38,533 bases of DNA from Actinomycetes bacterium. Its GTDB lineage: Bacteria > Actinomycetota > Acidimicrobiia > Acidimicrobiales > RAAP-2. The translations under genes were made by a program, and so were the position numbers. The notes under the pieces were generated by a model. The model searched no databases, was not told where the DNA came from, and saw only the letters and a list, made by a program, of their open reading frames with translations. Positions 19,212 through 28,153 of the stretch are shown one piece after another. The DNA lies in NCBI GenBank assembly GCA_021799615.1, contig JAJZAC010000015.1:1-38533 (forward strand), read 5' to 3'. The stretch's first letter is position 1; every line of letters begins with the position of its first letter.

Positions 19212-19285
19212 CGTGCGTCGCCGACCCGGTGACCCGCGGTCGTGGGCCGATTCGCGGACTGGCTCGCTCGACGAACCTCACGGAC

Positions 19286-20707
19286 GTGCTCTTCCCCACC
19301 ATCGACTTCGCCATCTTCTTCGCGGTGGTCTTCACCGTGAGCTGGCTCCTGAACCCGTTCCCGGTCCCGTGGAAGCTGTTCATCGTGGCGGCCAGCTACT
19401 TCTTCTACGCGTGGTGGGACTGGCGGTTCGTGTTCCTCCTGGCCGCCGCCACGGTCATCGCACACGTGGGCGCCACCGCGATCGAACGGACGTCGGGCAC
19501 GGCGCGCCGGGTGGCCATGTGGGCGTCGGTGGCCGGGCTGCTCGGGCTGCTCGGGTGGTTCAAGTACTACGGGTTCTTCGCCGTGAACCTGGACAACCTG
19601 TTCCGCTCGATCGGGTTCGGGCACCCGCTGCCCCTGCTGGCCATCACCCTGCCGGTGGCCATCTCCTTCTTCACCTTCATGGCCATCAGCTACGTGGTGG
19701 ACGTCGAGCGGGGCGTGGTGCGGCGGGCCCGGCCCATCGACCTCGCCGTCTACCTCTCGTTCTTCCCCCACCTGGTGGCCGGGCCCATCGTGCGGGGGAC
19801 CGAGCTGCTGCCCCAGATCCGCCGCCGCCGGGACGCCGCCGAGGTCGAGTACGCCCGCGCCTTCTGGCTGATCGCGTCGGGGCTGGCCAAGAAGGTCGTG
19901 CTCTCGTCGTACCTGTCGGCCAACGTCGTCGATCCCGTCTTCGCCGACCCCCACCAGCACTCGGCCCTCGAGATCCTCATGGCCGTGTGGGGGTACGGGG
20001 TGCAGATCTACGCCGACTTCAGCGGGTACACCGACATCGCCATCGGGATCGCCCTGCTGCTCGGGTTCCGGTTCCCGCAGAACTTCGACCGGCCGTACAC
20101 CGCGCTGTCGCTCCAGGACTTCTGGCGGCGCTGGCACATGACGCTCTCCTTCTGGCTGCGGGACTACCTCTACATCCCGCTCGGGGGCAACCGGGGGACG
20201 GAGCCGAGGATCGCCGCCAACATCATGGTGACGATGCTGCTCGGCGGCCTGTGGCACGGTGCCGCCTGGACCTTCGTGATCTGGGGCGGGATCCACGGCG
20301 TGGGGCAGGTCGTCGGCCGCCGGCGCCGGATGTACCGGCTCGCCCGCGGCCTCCCTACGGTGCCGGTCGGCCGGCGGCGGGTGGCGCTGGCCCGGTTCGC
20401 CACCTTCCAGTTCGTCTGCCTGGGCTGGCTCTTCTTCCGGGCGGACACGGTGGGGGTGGCGTGGACCATGCTGACCCGCGCCGTCACCGCCTGGGGATCG
20501 GCACCACTGGTCACGCCACTGGCCGTCGGTGCCGTCGCCATCGGGATCGCCACCCAGTACGTCCCCGACGGGTGGTTCGACGCCGTGCTCACCTTCTTCG
20601 CCGAGCGCCGCGTGGTCGTCCAAGGGGCCATACTGGGCCTGGTGCTGCTGGCCATCACCACCCTGGGGCCGGCCGGCGTCGCACCCTTCATCTACTACCG
20701 CTTCTGA
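19286..20707 (+). CDS. MBOAT-family membrane O-acyltransferase (AlgI-like)
   Basis: A polytopic membrane protein of 473 residues that moves acyl groups across the membrane to a carbohydrate. It opens LFPTIDFAIFFAVVF and carries FFPHLVAGPIVRG, YADFSGYTDIAIGIALLLGF, DFWRRWHMTLSFWLRDYLYI and LLGGLWHGAAWTF with the catalytic His324. These are the core MBOAT/AlgI motifs. GTG 19286 is chosen because family members begin at LFPT; GTG 19229 would add 19 residues. Thirty-one nt on lies an SGNH-type protein, the usual partner that completes O-acylation outside the membrane. The glycan target is unknown. Confidence 0.92.
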   Translation: MLFPTIDFAIFFAVVFTVSWLLNPFPVPWKLFIVAASYFFYAWWDWRFVFLLAAATVIAHVGATAIERTSGTARRVAMWASVAGLLGLLGWFKYYGFFAVNLDNLFRSIGFGHPLPLLAITLPVAISFFTFMAISYVVDVERGVVRRARPIDLAVYLSFFPHLVAGPIVRGTELLPQIRRRRDAAEVEYARAFWLIASGLAKKVVLSSYLSANVVDPVFADPHQHSALEILMAVWGYGVQIYADFSGYTDIAIGIALLLGFRFPQNFDRPYTALSLQDFWRRWHMTLSFWLRDYLYIPLGGNRGTEPRIAANIMVTMLLGGLWHGAAWTFVIWGGIHGVGQVVGRRRRMYRLARGLPTVPVGRRRVALARFATFQFVCLGWLFFRADTVGVAWTMLTRAVTAWGSAPLVTPLAVGAVAIGIATQYVPDGWFDAVLTFFAERRVVVQGAILGLVLLAITTLGPAGVAPFIYYRF

Positions 20708-20738
20708 CCGATCCGCCACCGCTCCCGACCTGGCCGAC

Positions 20739-21848
20739 ATGACTCCAGCGCTTCCCGACGACGTCGACGTCCGCCGCCCGCCCGGGCTGGGACCGGGCGA
20801 GGGGCTGCCCGACCCGGACCACCGGCGGGCGCCGTGGCGCCGGGTCCTGGCCGTCGGCGTGACGTGCTTCGCCGTGTGGCTCCTCCTCGACGCGCCCAGC
20901 CTCCAGCGCTCCGCGGAGGTGTCACCCCTCGGCACCCGGCGCACCGTCTCGCTCGACGTGCTGGGCCCTCTGGCCGCCGTCAGCCGGGGCCTCGGGGTGG
21001 ACCACGTCGTGTCCGTCGCCGACGGGCTGCTCGGCCGGACGCCCGGTGGCGGCCCGGCGCTCGCCACCCCCCGCCCGGGCCGCACCGTGGGACGGGTCGA
21101 CCCGCCGCCGACGGTGCCGCCCGCACCTGCCCACGGGCAGCGGCCGGCGTCGCCGTCCACCACCACGACCACCTTCCCTCCCCTGTTCGCGGATCCGACG
21201 GCGGCCGACCCGCTGCGGGTCCTGGCCGTCGGCGACTCGATCGGGATCGATCTCGGCCAGCCGCTGGTCGACGACCTGACCGCCACCGGCATCGTCCACG
21301 CCGTCCTCGACGGCAGGGTCGACACCGGCTTGGCCCGGCCCGACTACTTCGACTGGCCGGCCGAGCTGCGCATCGACCTGAGCAACGACGCGCCCCAACT
21401 GGTGGTGGTGATGATGGGGGCCAACGACCCCCAGAGCATGCTGGTCGGCGGCCGCGCCGTCGCCTACGGGACGGCGGCGTGGGACGCCGCCTACGCCCAG
21501 CGGGTCGGCGCCTTCATCGGCGAGGCCACCGCCACCGGAGCCCACGTCCTGTGGGTGGGGATGCCGCCGATGGAGAACCCGCAGCTCACTGCCGAGATGG
21601 TCCACATCAACGCCATCGTGGCCGCCCAGGTTGCCATGCGGCCCGGTGCGGCCGCCTTCTTGTCGTCGTGGAACGTGCTCGGTGGGCCGCAGGGGACGTT
21701 CAACGCCTATCTCCCCGGACCGGGCGGGGCCGAGGTCAACGTGCGCACGCCGGACGGCACCCACCTGACGCCGGGCGGCGGGCAGGTCCTGGCCCAGGCG
21801 GTCATCGCCGCCATCCACGCCGACTTCCACGTGGCCCTGCCCGGCTGA
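20739..21848 (+). CDS. Membrane-anchored SGNH-hydrolase-like acyltransferase partner (DUF459-like)
   Basis: A 369-residue protein. The first 40 residues are a charged cytosolic tail, then one hydrophobic helix (VLAVGVTCFAVWLLLDAP, about residues 37-55), then a Pro/Thr-rich linker (SPSTTTTTFPP). From about 155 comes an SGNH domain with AVGDSIGIDLG (Ser167), VMMGANDPQSM (block III Asn) and TPDGTHLTPGG (Asp339, His342). The full SGNH set is present, so it should be catalytic. Next to an MBOAT gene, it is expected to attach acetyl or other acyl groups to an exported polysaccharide. ATG 20739 is the first plausible start after the MBOAT stop. Confidence 0.85.
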   Translation: MTPALPDDVDVRRPPGLGPGEGLPDPDHRRAPWRRVLAVGVTCFAVWLLLDAPSLQRSAEVSPLGTRRTVSLDVLGPLAAVSRGLGVDHVVSVADGLLGRTPGGGPALATPRPGRTVGRVDPPPTVPPAPAHGQRPASPSTTTTTFPPLFADPTAADPLRVLAVGDSIGIDLGQPLVDDLTATGIVHAVLDGRVDTGLARPDYFDWPAELRIDLSNDAPQLVVVMMGANDPQSMLVGGRAVAYGTAAWDAAYAQRVGAFIGEATATGAHVLWVGMPPMENPQLTAEMVHINAIVAAQVAMRPGAAAFLSSWNVLGGPQGTFNAYLPGPGGAEVNVRTPDGTHLTPGGGQVLAQAVIAAIHADFHVALPG

Positions 21849-21869: not shown

Positions 21870-22598
21870 TCACACCAGCGGCCAGGGATAGGGCGGGTGG
21901 TCGCCGTCCGGCTCCGGGTAGGTGCCCGTCGCCACCAGGCGGGCGATGCGCCGGCGGAGGGCGGCCACCTCGCCGGCGTCGAGCAGGTCCGACAGCGCAG
22001 CTGGCACGGCCCGGCCCAGGGTGTCGAGGTCGGCGAGCAGGTGGTCGGGGACCGGCTCGCCGCGGTACTCCCAGATGACCGTGCGGAGCTTGTGGTCGGC
22101 ATGGAAGCAGAGGCCGTGGTCGATGGCCCGCAGGCGCCCGGCGTCCGTGGCCAGCACGTGGCCGCTCTTGCGGTCGGCGTTGTTCACCACCACGTCGAAG
22201 GCGCAGATGGTCCGCAGGGTGTCGTCGTGGCCGCCCTCCTCGATCAGCGTGAAGGCGTGGCGGTCGTAGTCGGCCGGTTCGAACGCCTGGAGCGAGCCGG
22301 TGCCGAACGGCAGGTCGTGGCGGACGACGGTCGGTGGCACCAGGTCCCAGGCGAGGGCCCGTGACACCAGGTAGGCGGCGACCTCCCGCCGGTAGAGCCC
22401 GCCAGGGAAGTCCCAGAGCGGCCGCTCGCCCCGCTCGGGCTTGTAGACGGCCCGGAGCCCCGGTCCGCCGTCCGGCGAGCACACGGTGACGAGGAAGGTC
22501 TGGTTGGAGCTCCACGGGAGCCGGCCCTCCACCTCCACCTCGCCGGTGGCCAGTGCCAGCTCGACCTGGTCGTCGGGGTGGGCGCCCACTGCCGGCAC
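21870..22598 (-). CDS. SCO1664-family kinase-like protein (PI3/4-kinase-like fold)
   Basis: About 242 residues. It is kept with DUF3090 and a histidine phosphatase in many actinomycetes, but no function is known to me. Kinase-like landmarks are visible: RAVYKPERGERPLWDFP (candidate ATP lysine), DVVVNNADRKSGHVL (catalytic-loop-like Asp/Asn) and LRAIDHGLCFH (Mg-binding IDHG in place of DFG). GTG 22598 follows the DUF3090 stop by 2 nt. An ATG at 22682 would overlap that gene by 82 nt. The Lys, NADRK and IDHG elements suggest an active phosphotransferase; the substrate is unknown. Confidence 0.8.
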   Translation of the reverse strand: MPAVGAHPDDQVELALATGEVEVEGRLPWSSNQTFLVTVCSPDGGPGLRAVYKPERGERPLWDFPGGLYRREVAAYLVSRALAWDLVPPTVVRHDLPFGTGSLQAFEPADYDRHAFTLIEEGGHDDTLRTICAFDVVVNNADRKSGHVLATDAGRLRAIDHGLCFHADHKLRTVIWEYRGEPVPDHLLADLDTLGRAVPAALSDLLDAGEVAALRRRIARLVATGTYPEPDGDHPPYPWPLV

Positions 22599-22600
22599 CC

Positions 22601-23098
22601 TCAGGACACCGGCGGTCGGTGGCCGTTCGTCCGCGGGCACAGGTGCCCCGACGGGTCGAGGGGGGACCCGCACAGCGGGCACGGCGGCCTGCCCGACGCC
22701 ACGAGGCGGGTGGCGGCGATGGCGAAGGCGGCAGCCTGTTCCCGGGTCACGGCCAGGCGGGCCATGGAGCCGGCCTCGTCCTCGGGGACGAGCTCCTCGA
22801 CGACCAGGATCACGCGGTCGATGTCGGCGTCGAAGGAGACCCCGATGGTGCCGACCACCCAGTCCGGCTCGGCGTCGCCCTCGAACGGTGGCGGCTCCCC
22901 GACGTGGCCGGGACGGGGCGCCTGGCGGACCACGCCGCCCAGGTACTCGGCCAGGGCCCCGACCTGTTGCTTCTCGAGCTTGAGGGTGAGCACCTGCCGG
23001 CCCTGGGCGACCTGGACCAGGAACACCCGCTGGCCCGGTGGACCCGGCGCGGCCACGGTGAACCGGTCGGGAGCGTCGAAGTCGTGCTGGGCGCTCAT
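22601..23098 (-). CDS. DUF3090 family protein with C-terminal zinc ribbon
   Basis: A 165-residue protein of unknown function. The body (VFLVQVAQGRQVLTLKLEK, then WVVGTIGVSFDADIDRVILV) is conserved and is predicted mixed alpha/beta. The C-terminus has CPLCGSPLDPSGHLCPRTNG, a zinc-ribbon-like Cys set with a following His. Homologues are nearly always next to the SCO1664-like and phosphomutase-like genes. ATG 23098 is chosen; the adjacent GTG 23101 would add one residue. It lies 10 nt behind the phosphatase and 2 nt ahead of the kinase-like gene, so it is certainly in one operon with them. Confidence 0.85.
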   Translation of the reverse strand: MSAQHDFDAPDRFTVAAPGPPGQRVFLVQVAQGRQVLTLKLEKQQVGALAEYLGGVVRQAPRPGHVGEPPPFEGDAEPDWVVGTIGVSFDADIDRVILVVEELVPEDEAGSMARLAVTREQAAAFAIAATRLVASGRPPCPLCGSPLDPSGHLCPRTNGHRPPVS

Positions 23099-23108
23099 CA
23101 CACCCGCC

Positions 23109-23771
23109 TCACGAGATCGCCAGCTCGGCGAGCGACGCCGTCGAGTTCACGCACAGCACGTGGATCCCACCGGACCCGATGGCGAGGGCGCTGACCGAGC
23201 ACGGCGAGACCACCAGGCGTTGGAACAGGTCGAGCGGGGTCCCGGCCGCCCCGGCCACCGCCGCCTTGATCGGGTCGGCGTGGGACACGGCGACCACCGT
23301 CTCGCCGGGGTGGGTGGCGGCCAGACCTTCGAGGGTGCCGGCCATCCGGGCCGAGAGCTCCGTGAAGGACTCGCCACCGGGGAACCGGAACGACGCCGGT
23401 GCGTACTGGACGGTCTGCCAGGAGCGCTCCCGCACCAGCTCGCGCAGGGGGCGACCGGTCCACTCGCCGAAGTCGCACTCGAGCAGGCCCCGGTGGCGGC
23501 GCACGGCGAGCCCGAGGGCGCGAGCGATCGGCCGGGCCGTCTCCACCGTCCGCTCCAGGGGCGACGCGTAGACGGCGGCGACCGAGCGCCCGCGGCCCGA
23601 GGCCGACTCGGCGATCCGGCCGGCCACCGACTCGGCCTGGGCACGGCCCTCGTCGGACAGGTGGAGCCCGGCGGCCCGCCCGGGCAGGACGGCACCGGTG
23701 GTGGGGGTGCGCCCGTGACGGACCAGGAGGACGACCGTGGGGCGCTGGGCGGCGGAGCGTCGTGGCGGCAC
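23109..23771 (-). CDS. Histidine phosphatase-family protein (MSMEG_4193-type putative phosphomutase)
   Basis: A 220-residue histidine-phosphatase-branch protein. LLVRHGRTPTTGAVLPGRA holds the catalytic RHG and the following Thr/Pro, ASPLERTVETARPIA the second Arg, LLECDFGEWTGRPL the proton donor and AVSHADPIKAAVAG the second His. The set is complete, so it should act as a phosphatase or mutase. The name MSMEG_4193 refers to a conserved actinobacterial subgroup. GTG 23771 follows a TACGGT hexamer by 8 nt, so the operon is probably leaderless. It is the first gene of a three-gene unit with DUF3090 and the kinase-like protein. Confidence 0.88.
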   Translation of the reverse strand: MPPRRSAAQRPTVVLLVRHGRTPTTGAVLPGRAAGLHLSDEGRAQAESVAGRIAESASGRGRSVAAVYASPLERTVETARPIARALGLAVRRHRGLLECDFGEWTGRPLRELVRERSWQTVQYAPASFRFPGGESFTELSARMAGTLEGLAATHPGETVVAVSHADPIKAAVAGAAGTPLDLFQRLVVSPCSVSALAIGSGGIHVLCVNSTASLAELAIS

Positions 23772-23795: not shown

Positions 23796-24488
23796 ATGGG
23801 ATCCCGTCCGCACGAGACCGCCCTCCCGGCACCCCTGGCCCGCCTGGCCGCCGAGGTGGAGGCCTGCCGGCGCTGCCCCCGCCTGGTGGCCTGGCGGGAG
23901 CAGGTGGCGTCCGAGCGGCGCGCCGCCTTCGTCGACCAGGTCTACTGGGGCCGGCCGGTGCCCGGCTTCGGCGACCCAGCGGCGACGGTCGTCGTGGTGG
24001 GCCTGGCGCCGGCCGCCCACGGCGCCAACCGGACGGGGCGGATCTTCACCGGCGACCGGTCCGGTGACTGGCTGTTCCGGGCCCTGTGGCGGGCGGGCTA
24101 CGCCAACCAGCCGACCAGCACCGCCCGAGACGACGGCCTCGTCCTGTCCGGCGCCTGGGTCACCGCCGCGGTCCGCTGTGCCCCGCCGGGGAACCGGCCC
24201 ACGACCGAGGAGCGCGACGCGTGCCTGCCCTTCCTCGACCGGGAGCTGGAGCTCCTCGACCGGACGCGGGTCGTCGTCGCCCTCGGTGGGTTCGCCTTCG
24301 GCATCGTGGCGTCACTGGCCGGCCTGCGCCCCCGGCCCCGCTTCGGCCACCTGGCCGAAGCGGCCCTGCCCGACGGGCGCACCCTGCTCGCGTCGTACCA
24401 CCCGAGCCAGCAGAACACGTTCACCGGCACCCTGACCGAGGAGATGTTCGACCGGGTGTTCGACCGGGCCCGCCTGCTGGCCGGCTGA
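23796..24488 (+). CDS. Family 5 uracil-DNA glycosylase (UdgB), iron-sulfur type
   Basis: Removes uracil (and in family 5 also hypoxanthine and other deaminated bases) from DNA. The 230-residue product has EACRRCPRLVAWR at the start with cysteines C24 and C27, motif A VGLAPAAHGANRTGRIFTGD, ARDDGLVLSG, AVRCAPPGNRPT, RDACLPFL and motif ASYHPSQQNTF. The four cysteines fit the [4Fe-4S] cluster, and GLAPAAHG with no Asp/Glu at the family 4 position points to family 5. ATG 23796 is set by the leaderless promoter 6 nt upstream. It is convergent with the MMPL gene. Confidence 0.93.
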   Translation: MGSRPHETALPAPLARLAAEVEACRRCPRLVAWREQVASERRAAFVDQVYWGRPVPGFGDPAATVVVVGLAPAAHGANRTGRIFTGDRSGDWLFRALWRAGYANQPTSTARDDGLVLSGAWVTAAVRCAPPGNRPTTEERDACLPFLDRELELLDRTRVVVALGGFAFGIVASLAGLRPRPRFGHLAEAALPDGRTLLASYHPSQQNTFTGTLTEEMFDRVFDRARLLAG

Positions 24489-27028: not shown

Positions 27029-28153
27029 TCAGACCGGAGTGGGCAGGCGGCGCGGCATGGGCACCGCCGTCTCGGGCCAGCGGCGCCGGCTCACCCGCGA
27101 CAGCTTGTGCAACAGCGCCACCGCGCCGGGGTCGTCGCTGCCCGGGCGCACCTCGAGGGCGCCCCCGTCGGCCATGGCGTCGACCAGGTCGCGCCCGCGC
27201 TCGGTCCGCACCAGGGTGAGGGTCCAGTCGGCGTTGGCGCCGATCCCGCCGGTGGAGATGTCGGCGTGCTCAGCGGCGAAGTCCGGGCAGGCCGTGCATC
27301 CCTCGCGGGTCCAGCCGTGGGCCTCCTTGAGCGGGATCTCGTGGTAGCTGCCGTCGCGCATCCACACCTGGAACACGCCCTTGATGTTCATCTTGGCGAT
27401 GTCGGCCCGGGCCAGCCCGTAACGGGCCTCGAACAGCTCGGGGAAGATGGCGTCGTCGAACGACTTCGAGCAGAGCAGGCCGATGGACAGCGACAGGCGG
27501 CGGGCGATCTTGCCCGCCTTGCGGGCCGCCATGATGGCCGGCGCCGATGCCTGGCAGCCCATCCCCACCAGGGCGATCCGCTCGGCACCCCCCGCCACCG
27601 CCTCGGGGTAGGCGAGGGTGTTGGCCGAGTAGGTGTAGCGGGACCCGGCCGCCCGGAGGACCGACGCCCGGTCGGTGGCCACCGCGGGGACCGCCTTCCA
27701 CGTCGAACCGTCGCCTTCGAGGTCCGACACCAGGGCGGCGTCGATCACGTCGTGCTCGAGGGCCCAGATCAACAGGGCGGAGACGAGACCGCCGTCCTGA
27801 CCGGCGGCCAGGATCTCGGGGTCGGTCGCCCTGGCCAGCAGGACCCGCCCCTCGATCCCCGACACCTCGTCGTCGGTGCGCTCGCGGCCGTGGAGGTGGG
27901 TGTCCGCCTCGGGTTCCCAGGTCCGGAACCTCGGGCAGGCCCGGGTGCACATGGTGCACCCCTTCACGCCGTGGGTGCAGTCGGTCGGGCCCCCGTCCTC
28001 CTCGACGTGGAACGGCTTGTACCGGCCGCCGGCGTCGTCGTAGCGGAGGACGTCGTGGGGGCAGGCGACGATGCACCCGGCGCACCCGGTGCACAGCCCC
28101 GACGTGACGACCTCGGTGTACAGCTCGGCCCACTGCGGCTTCTCTGGAGGCAT
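27029..28153 (-). CDS. F420 hydrogenase/dehydrogenase beta subunit-like (FrhB family) iron-sulfur flavoprotein
   Basis: A 374-residue FrhB/FpoF-type protein expected to move electrons between F420 and iron-sulfur or FAD centres. The N-terminal ferredoxin part reads GLCTGCAGCIVACPHDVL (CX2CX2CX3CP), followed by a second set GCTMCTRACPRF. ILAAGQDGGLVSALLIWALE starts the FrhB domain. VGMGCQASAPAIM, IGLLCSKSF and GCTACPDFAAEHADIS carry more conserved cysteines, and GIGANADWTLTLVRTERG is the F420-site region. No hydrogenase or coenzyme-M partner is near, so it is a stand-alone oxidoreductase. ATG 28153 lies 6 nt behind TAGGGT, so it is probably leaderless. Confidence 0.9.
   Translation of the reverse strand: MPPEKPQWAELYTEVVTSGLCTGCAGCIVACPHDVLRYDDAGGRYKPFHVEEDGGPTDCTHGVKGCTMCTRACPRFRTWEPEADTHLHGRERTDDEVSGIEGRVLLARATDPEILAAGQDGGLVSALLIWALEHDVIDAALVSDLEGDGSTWKAVPAVATDRASVLRAAGSRYTYSANTLAYPEAVAGGAERIALVGMGCQASAPAIMAARKAGKIARRLSLSIGLLCSKSFDDAIFPELFEARYGLARADIAKMNIKGVFQVWMRDGSYHEIPLKEAHGWTREGCTACPDFAAEHADISTGGIGANADWTLTLVRTERGRDLVDAMADGGALEVRPGSDDPGAVALLHKLSRVSRRRWPETAVPMPRRLPTPV

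Follow-up and report, generated by a model that had tools for sequence, protein, structure and literature searches.

A conserved operon of a PI4KII/Fam20-like kinase, a DUF3090 protein and a histidine phosphatase in Actinomycetota and Chloroflexota

Curated NCBIfam families cover a kinase-like protein (TIGR03843, the SCO1664 family), a DUF3090 protein (TIGR03847) and a histidine phosphatase (TIGR03848, the MSMEG_4193 family), and TIGRFAMs reportedly already records the three as an actinobacterial three-gene system. The Mycobacterium tuberculosis genes Rv2133c-Rv2134c-Rv2135c are presumably members of this set. In the actinomycetes compared by Chandra and Chater, the kinase gene SCO1664 always lay near mshC (PMC4255298). 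Rv2135c has been characterized as a tetrameric acid phosphatase that lacks phosphoglycerate mutase activity, has a Km of ~8 to 14 mM on small phosphates and was located to membrane fractions (PMC3866925); given this Km, such small phosphates are probably not its real substrate. In addition, a transposon screen lists Rv2134c among the mutants of altered rifampicin sensitivity (PMC11329110). Beyond the Rv2135c work and this screen, we found no functional paper on the trio loci in the literature searched, nor one on DUF3090 or the kinase.

The original prediction, made from the DNA of an Actinomycetes bacterium, described the trio as a conserved actinobacterial set of no described function. The function is indeed undescribed, but the trio is not new as a set, since its families are already catalogued; the mshC link and the acid phosphatase are on record, and the set is found in Chloroflexota as well, so it is not purely actinobacterial. 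What the present analysis adds is the exact co-inheritance of the genes, the conservation of their catalytic residues (including a signature histidine in the kinase), their structural likenesses and a second kinase-phosphatase pair in the Micrococcaceae.

The trio and its neighbors

We analyzed a 38,533-nucleotide stretch of DNA (here, the window) from a member of the Acidimicrobiia. Three tightly packed genes had been placed between positions 21870 and 23771, and their reading frames were found there on the minus strand, transcribed in the order phosphatase, DUF3090, kinase and separated by gaps of a few bases:

23109 to 23771, minus strand: histidine phosphatase, trio gene 1 (PF00300, E = 1.2e-45; TIGR03848, 181.4 bits)
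23712 to 23720, minus strand: RHG motif (R18-H19-G20), phospho-histidine site of the phosphatase (R18 and H19 invariant in 65 homologues)
22601 to 23098, minus strand: DUF3090 protein, trio gene 2 (PF11290, E = 4e-35; TIGR03847, 135.5 bits)
22637 to 22681, minus strand: C-terminal zinc ribbon of DUF3090 (C141, C144, H153, C155; Cys/His set kept in 62 to 63 of 64 homologues)
21870 to 22598, minus strand: SCO1664-family PI4KII/Fam20-like kinase, trio gene 3 (TIGR03843, 262.9 bits)
22440 to 22442, minus strand: kinase ATP-site Lys81 (VYKP)
22158 to 22181, minus strand: kinase catalytic loop N168-A-D170-R-K172-S-G-H175
22113 to 22124, minus strand: kinase metal-binding IDHG (D188)
23796 to 24488, plus strand: divergent uracil-DNA glycosylase (UDG), a neighbor outside the system (PF03167, E = 1.3e-26)

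Since the nominal kinase ORF in the ORF list starts at 22682 and overlaps the DUF3090 gene by 82 nt, a start near 22598 or 22589 is likelier. The window set belongs to the catalogued families and keeps their gene order. The kinase matches TIGR03843 over the full profile (positions 1 to 253 of 253) above the cut-off of 172.4 bits, and the DUF3090 protein exceeds its cut-off of 117.25 bits. In contrast, the phosphatase is divergent: TIGR03848 is its best match, but the score falls under the cut-off of 203.85 bits, as do those of about a dozen further trio-linked phosphatases in a scan of 149 genomes. The window trio also differs from the described set in having no mshC, UppP or CorA neighbor.

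Across 142 related loci, the neighbors of the trio vary by lineage, and neither a constant fourth gene nor a constant pathway gene was found. The divergent UDG gene had been proposed as a further clue to function; it proved to be a local feature of Acidimicrobiia-like loci rather than a general one, with a gene of this neighbor family directly upstream in this orientation in 25 of the 142 related loci. Other lineages carry RecO-like, RarA-like (both named by eye from the sequence) or MGMT genes nearby. We rejected a DNA-repair neighborhood as a signal, since these genes are scattered among lineages and fumarase, phosphate-transport-like, ETF and amino-acid genes occur likewise. An apparent AAA+ match at two loci (L099 and L142) was discarded, since the ORF behind it runs antisense to the phosphatase gene.

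Several neighbors were recorded in their own right. The window UDG scores far under the family 4 models, and its GLAPAAHGANRTGR motif recalls what we take to be family 5 (UDGb). Convergent to the trio, positions 19229 to 21848 encode an MBOAT acyltransferase and, after it, a DUF459/SGNH hydrolase, an acyl-transfer pair of the PatA/PatB or DltB-like kind. Positions 27029 to 28153 encode a protein that resembles F420H2-dehydrogenase beta (FrhB) and starts with a ferredoxin domain; 33 related loci have such a gene close to the trio. Finally, a DUF6183-like protein of ~340 residues, absent from the window, is encoded directly 3' of the kinase in 17 Acidimicrobiia-like loci (e.g., L064, 10824 to 11840).

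Active-site residues and predicted folds

The Lys, NADRK and IDHG elements claimed for the kinase are all present, as Lys81 in VYKP, N168-A-D170-R-K172 and I187-D188-H-G. Lys81, Glu100, Asp170, Arg171, Lys172, His175, Asp188, Arg200, Thr201 and Trp204 are invariant in 63 homologues, as is a C-terminal PWP motif. When the catalytic loop was aligned to those of PI4KII (NTDRGNDN) and Fam20A (NMDRHHYE), His175 fell at the position of the metal-binding Asn of PI4KII and of a Glu in Fam20A, and this signature His (DRKxGH) stands in place of the Asn ligand in 63/63 homologues. The conservation pattern is thus unlike that expected of a pseudokinase, though the His is unusual, and because it replaces a metal-binding Asn, ATP turnover by the kinase is not guaranteed.

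The AlphaFold2 model of the kinase (pLDDT 92.3) best matches PI4KII-beta (Z 19.3 over 220 residues, 20% identity), and type II PI 4-kinases as a group align over 217 to 223 residues with Z scores of 17.6 to 19.3 and rmsd values of 3.3 to 3.8. More distant matches are Fam20 (Z 16.1; 15 to 16 across Fam20A/B/C), CtkA (14.0), HipA (11.0) and class I PI3K (9). The matched structures include an ATP-bound PI4KII, and the residues of the ATP and metal sites are all conserved; the possibility raised at the outset, that the modelled site might be unable to hold ATP, was therefore not borne out. At the sequence level, searching the PDB with the single kinase sequence gave no convincing match, while a profile search returned PI4KII as the closest sequence; in a Pfam-type profile search, the PI3_PI4_kinase match was below threshold.

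These comparisons place the kinase near several described enzymes without making it one of them. It shares with PI4KII-alpha and -beta the whole-domain fold, the NxDR catalytic loop and the Asp of the DxG motif; unlike them, it has His for the Asn metal ligand in all homologues, comprises only ~230 residues and is encoded in a bacterial operon. The window protein amounts to a minimal soluble domain; its three Cys residues are isolated, and it has no CCPCC palmitoylation motif. With Fam20A/B/C it shares the fold and a conserved DF..E.AA....VPPTV.R block, although the Fam20 proteins are animal kinases of the secretory pathway. The bacterial Ser/Thr kinases HipA and CtkA lie in the same fold branch; in contrast to them, the trio kinase has no HipB partner, HipA N-subdomain or HipA_C domain and is a conserved chromosomal gene, mostly in single copy.

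The histidine phosphatase was claimed to be complete, and R18-H19-G20, R74, E98 and H164 are all present. Among trio-linked homologues, R18, H19, R74 and H164 are conserved in 65/65 and E98 in 64/65.

The DUF3090 protein ends, as predicted, in a zinc ribbon (CPLCG..GHLCPRTNG). The ligands are C-C-H-C, or C-C-C-C in some members (e.g., L160 and L172), and family members give weak matches to TiaS and double zinc-ribbon models. The Cys residues have been lost in the DUF3090 proteins of a few Anaerolineae (Chloroflexota; L151 and L158). In the AlphaFold2 model (pLDDT 89.5), the core resembles the strands-plus-helix double repeat of PUR-alpha (Z 9.9) and, next, Whirly (Z 6.5), in comparisons that barely cover the zinc ribbon. 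PUR-alpha and Whirly proteins bind single-stranded nucleic acids. They differ from DUF3090 in lacking the extra zinc ribbon, and no match was found at the sequence level: the PUR model was absent among the best 25 of 42 Pfam families, and PDB searches gave nothing convincing with the single DUF3090 sequence and nothing with a profile. Moreover, proteins of the DUF3090 family are acidic, with a median pI of 4.7, so we do not take the likeness as evidence of function.

Co-inheritance and a second pair in the Micrococcaceae

To follow the trio across genomes, we scanned 149 Actinomycetota genomes with profiles and chose loci by homology-guided ORF selection. The kinase and DUF3090 occur in the identical 64 genomes (64/64 versus 0/85), a co-occurrence far beyond chance, and a phosphatase of the trio kind is present in all 64. 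Gene order was the same in 62/62 loci checked. Given this pattern, a lack of co-inheritance, which had been named as evidence against the original proposal, was not found, and the proposal that an intact-looking kinase and a complete phosphatase share one operon gains an invariant, co-inherited locus. Pairwise correlations among the gene trees (126 loci) were 0.49 to 0.69, against a permutation maximum of 0.15, which mainly says that the three genes have a common history.

Streptomycetes, mycobacteria and related groups carry the trio, as does much of the sampled uncultured diversity of the Actinomycetota and Chloroflexota. Among the Chloroflexota, the set is present in Chloroflexaceae, Anaerolineae, Thermoflexus and Roseilinea. 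In some Chloroflexota, kinase and DUF3090 genes have no adjoining phosphatase gene, which implies that a phosphatase can at times be dispensed with or comes from another source. Corynebacterium glutamicum has kinase and phosphatase matches and no DUF3090. The trio is mostly single copy, with a fixed context inside lineages and a distribution spanning whole classes. Two apparent plasmid matches came from records of 11.85 Mb and 33 kb, the smaller of which carries mshC, metH and dapA; the sole phage match was an unverified metagenomic scaffold, and a search of viral contigs found no relative. Since these few records are mislabelled or unverified, the trio is not mobile in the usual sense. The 11.85-Mb replicon filed as a plasmid (NZ_LT559118.1) is apparently mislabelled, as are two MAG contigs named Bifidobacterium breve (L136 and L147) whose trio proteins look Acidimicrobiia-like.

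Eight Micrococcaceae loci (L040, L106, L108, L109, L119, L122, L157 and L163) carry a second kinase-phosphatase pair without DUF3090, divergent from genes for an AAA+ chelatase-like ATPase and a VWA protein of ~667 residues. Because of this arrangement, the AAA+/VWA complex could be a target of the pair. In both gene trees, the second pair falls among Acidimicrobiia-type sequences, with its exact sister position weakly supported, while the canonical actinomycete copies form their own well-supported clade; the second pair was therefore probably acquired horizontally. In the genomes that carry this pair, the native trio is complete in three (G008, G155 and G157), is cut to DUF3090 and kinase, without the native phosphatase, in Arthrobacter G160, consists of DUF3090 alone in G158 and G159, where no adjoining kinase or phosphatase remnant was found, and is absent from Citricoccus G156 and G161. 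The simplest reading of this handful of genomes, some of them draft, is that kinase and phosphatase would act as one unit, that an acquired pair can probably take the place of its native counterpart and that DUF3090 is a separable part. This history of transfer and loss supports coupling of the kinase and phosphatase.

Candidate functions of the trio

These data fit a single-copy, vertically inherited housekeeping module of reversible phosphorylation. In such a module, the soluble kinase, of the PI4KII/Fam20/HipA branch, would use ATP to phosphorylate one endogenous substrate, and the histidine phosphatase would take the phosphate off again. DUF3090, with its PUR/Whirly-like double repeat and zinc ribbon, may serve as an adaptor or regulator, separable from the kinase though in most cases found with it. 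As the substrate, we favor a Ser/Thr residue of a protein (or of a protein complex) over a lipid. Gene order, co-inheritance, the conserved catalytic residues, the predicted folds and the travelling and persistence of the Micrococcaceae pair as a unit are observed here; kinase catalysis, antagonism on a shared substrate, a protein substrate and an adaptor role are what we infer from them. Counted against this reading are the Chloroflexota without an adjacent phosphatase, the native kinase of G160, present without the native phosphatase, and the identity of the best structural match, a lipid kinase. On balance, we regard an antagonistic pair on one endogenous substrate as about an even prospect.

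Instead of opposing each other, the two enzymes could work in succession, each on its own substrate. The main rival is a metabolic pathway, in which the kinase makes a phosphorylated small metabolite that the phosphatase or mutase processes, in consecutive steps or in salvage (e.g., of F420, a thiol or inositol). NCBIfam labels the phosphatase a putative phosphomutase, alpha-ribazole phosphatase is among the next best models for it, and the trio adjoins mshC in actinomycetes (PMC4255298). However, strict mshC occurs in only 12/64 trio genomes, and we rejected mycothiol as the general substrate pathway on this ground. The F420 gene marker CofD overlaps more strongly (60/64 trio genomes versus 24/85 others, a comparison not controlled for shared ancestry), but the exceptions run both ways, with CofD missing from C. 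glutamicum and four trio genomes and present in 24 genomes without the trio, so F420 is not required either. The neighbors of the trio also differ in every lineage and include no constant pathway gene. We regard a metabolic pair as about half as likely as an antagonistic one. Separately, eight genomes of the window's class (G031, G066, G077, G099, G110, G016, G129 and G139) encode an MshC-like protein (~412 to 446 bits; cut-off, 485) within ~8 kb of a PIP-synthase-like gene, and mycothiol or inositol-thiol synthesis is possible in them.

A lipid switch, with phosphate added to phosphatidylinositol or a related lipid by the kinase and removed by the phosphatase, would suit PI4KII as the closest fold and closest PDB sequence, as well as the membrane location of Rv2135c (PMC3866925). 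We consider it improbable, since the kinase is a minimal soluble domain without CCPCC and PIP-synthase-like genes score similarly in trio and non-trio genomes, which led us to reject a link to phosphatidylinositol synthesis. The inositol-phosphate synthase model PF07994 does not track the trio either, a result that is uninformative because the type of synthase found in actinobacteria probably escapes the model. For the trio, mycothiol, F420 and phosphatidylinositol are thus each not required or unsupported.

Slightly more doubtful still is a nucleic-acid-linked module, in which DUF3090 would bind single-stranded DNA or RNA through its core and direct reversible phosphorylation at nucleic acid or at a protein involved in repair or translation. 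The PUR-alpha and Whirly matches and the repair neighbors of some lineages point this way, but the acidity of DUF3090 argues against nucleic-acid binding, a Z score near 10 is just modestly over background, no PUR model was among the best 25 of 42 Pfam families and the repair genes are lineage-specific, with no constant partner. A HipA-like toxin-antitoxin or anti-phage defense module, suggested by weak HipA_2 (sub-threshold) and PADLOC PDC-M66A matches limited to the catalytic loop and by the HipA fold score, is disfavored by the distribution of the trio (mostly single copy, fixed in lineage context, spread over whole classes and essentially absent from plasmids and phages) and by its DUF3090 and phosphatase partners in place of a HipB-like protein, and is very unlikely.

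Taken together, these results identify the trio as real, conserved and catalogued: a tractable orphan system for specialists rather than something categorically new. Tentatively, it may represent a previously undescribed bacterial signalling switch, ancient in the Actinomycetota and Chloroflexota, that combines a PI4KII/Fam20-type protein kinase bearing a signature metal-binding His, a dedicated histidine phosphatase and a PUR-fold zinc-ribbon adaptor, and whose kinase-phosphatase pair moved as a unit into the Micrococcaceae, where the native trio was partly or wholly lost. Should this hold, bacteria would have in this kinase an intact relative of PI4KII and Fam20 whose metal ligand is unusual, and the Micrococcaceae would offer a natural complementation series for the mutual dependence of the trio parts. 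These proposals are directly testable in standard laboratory strains.
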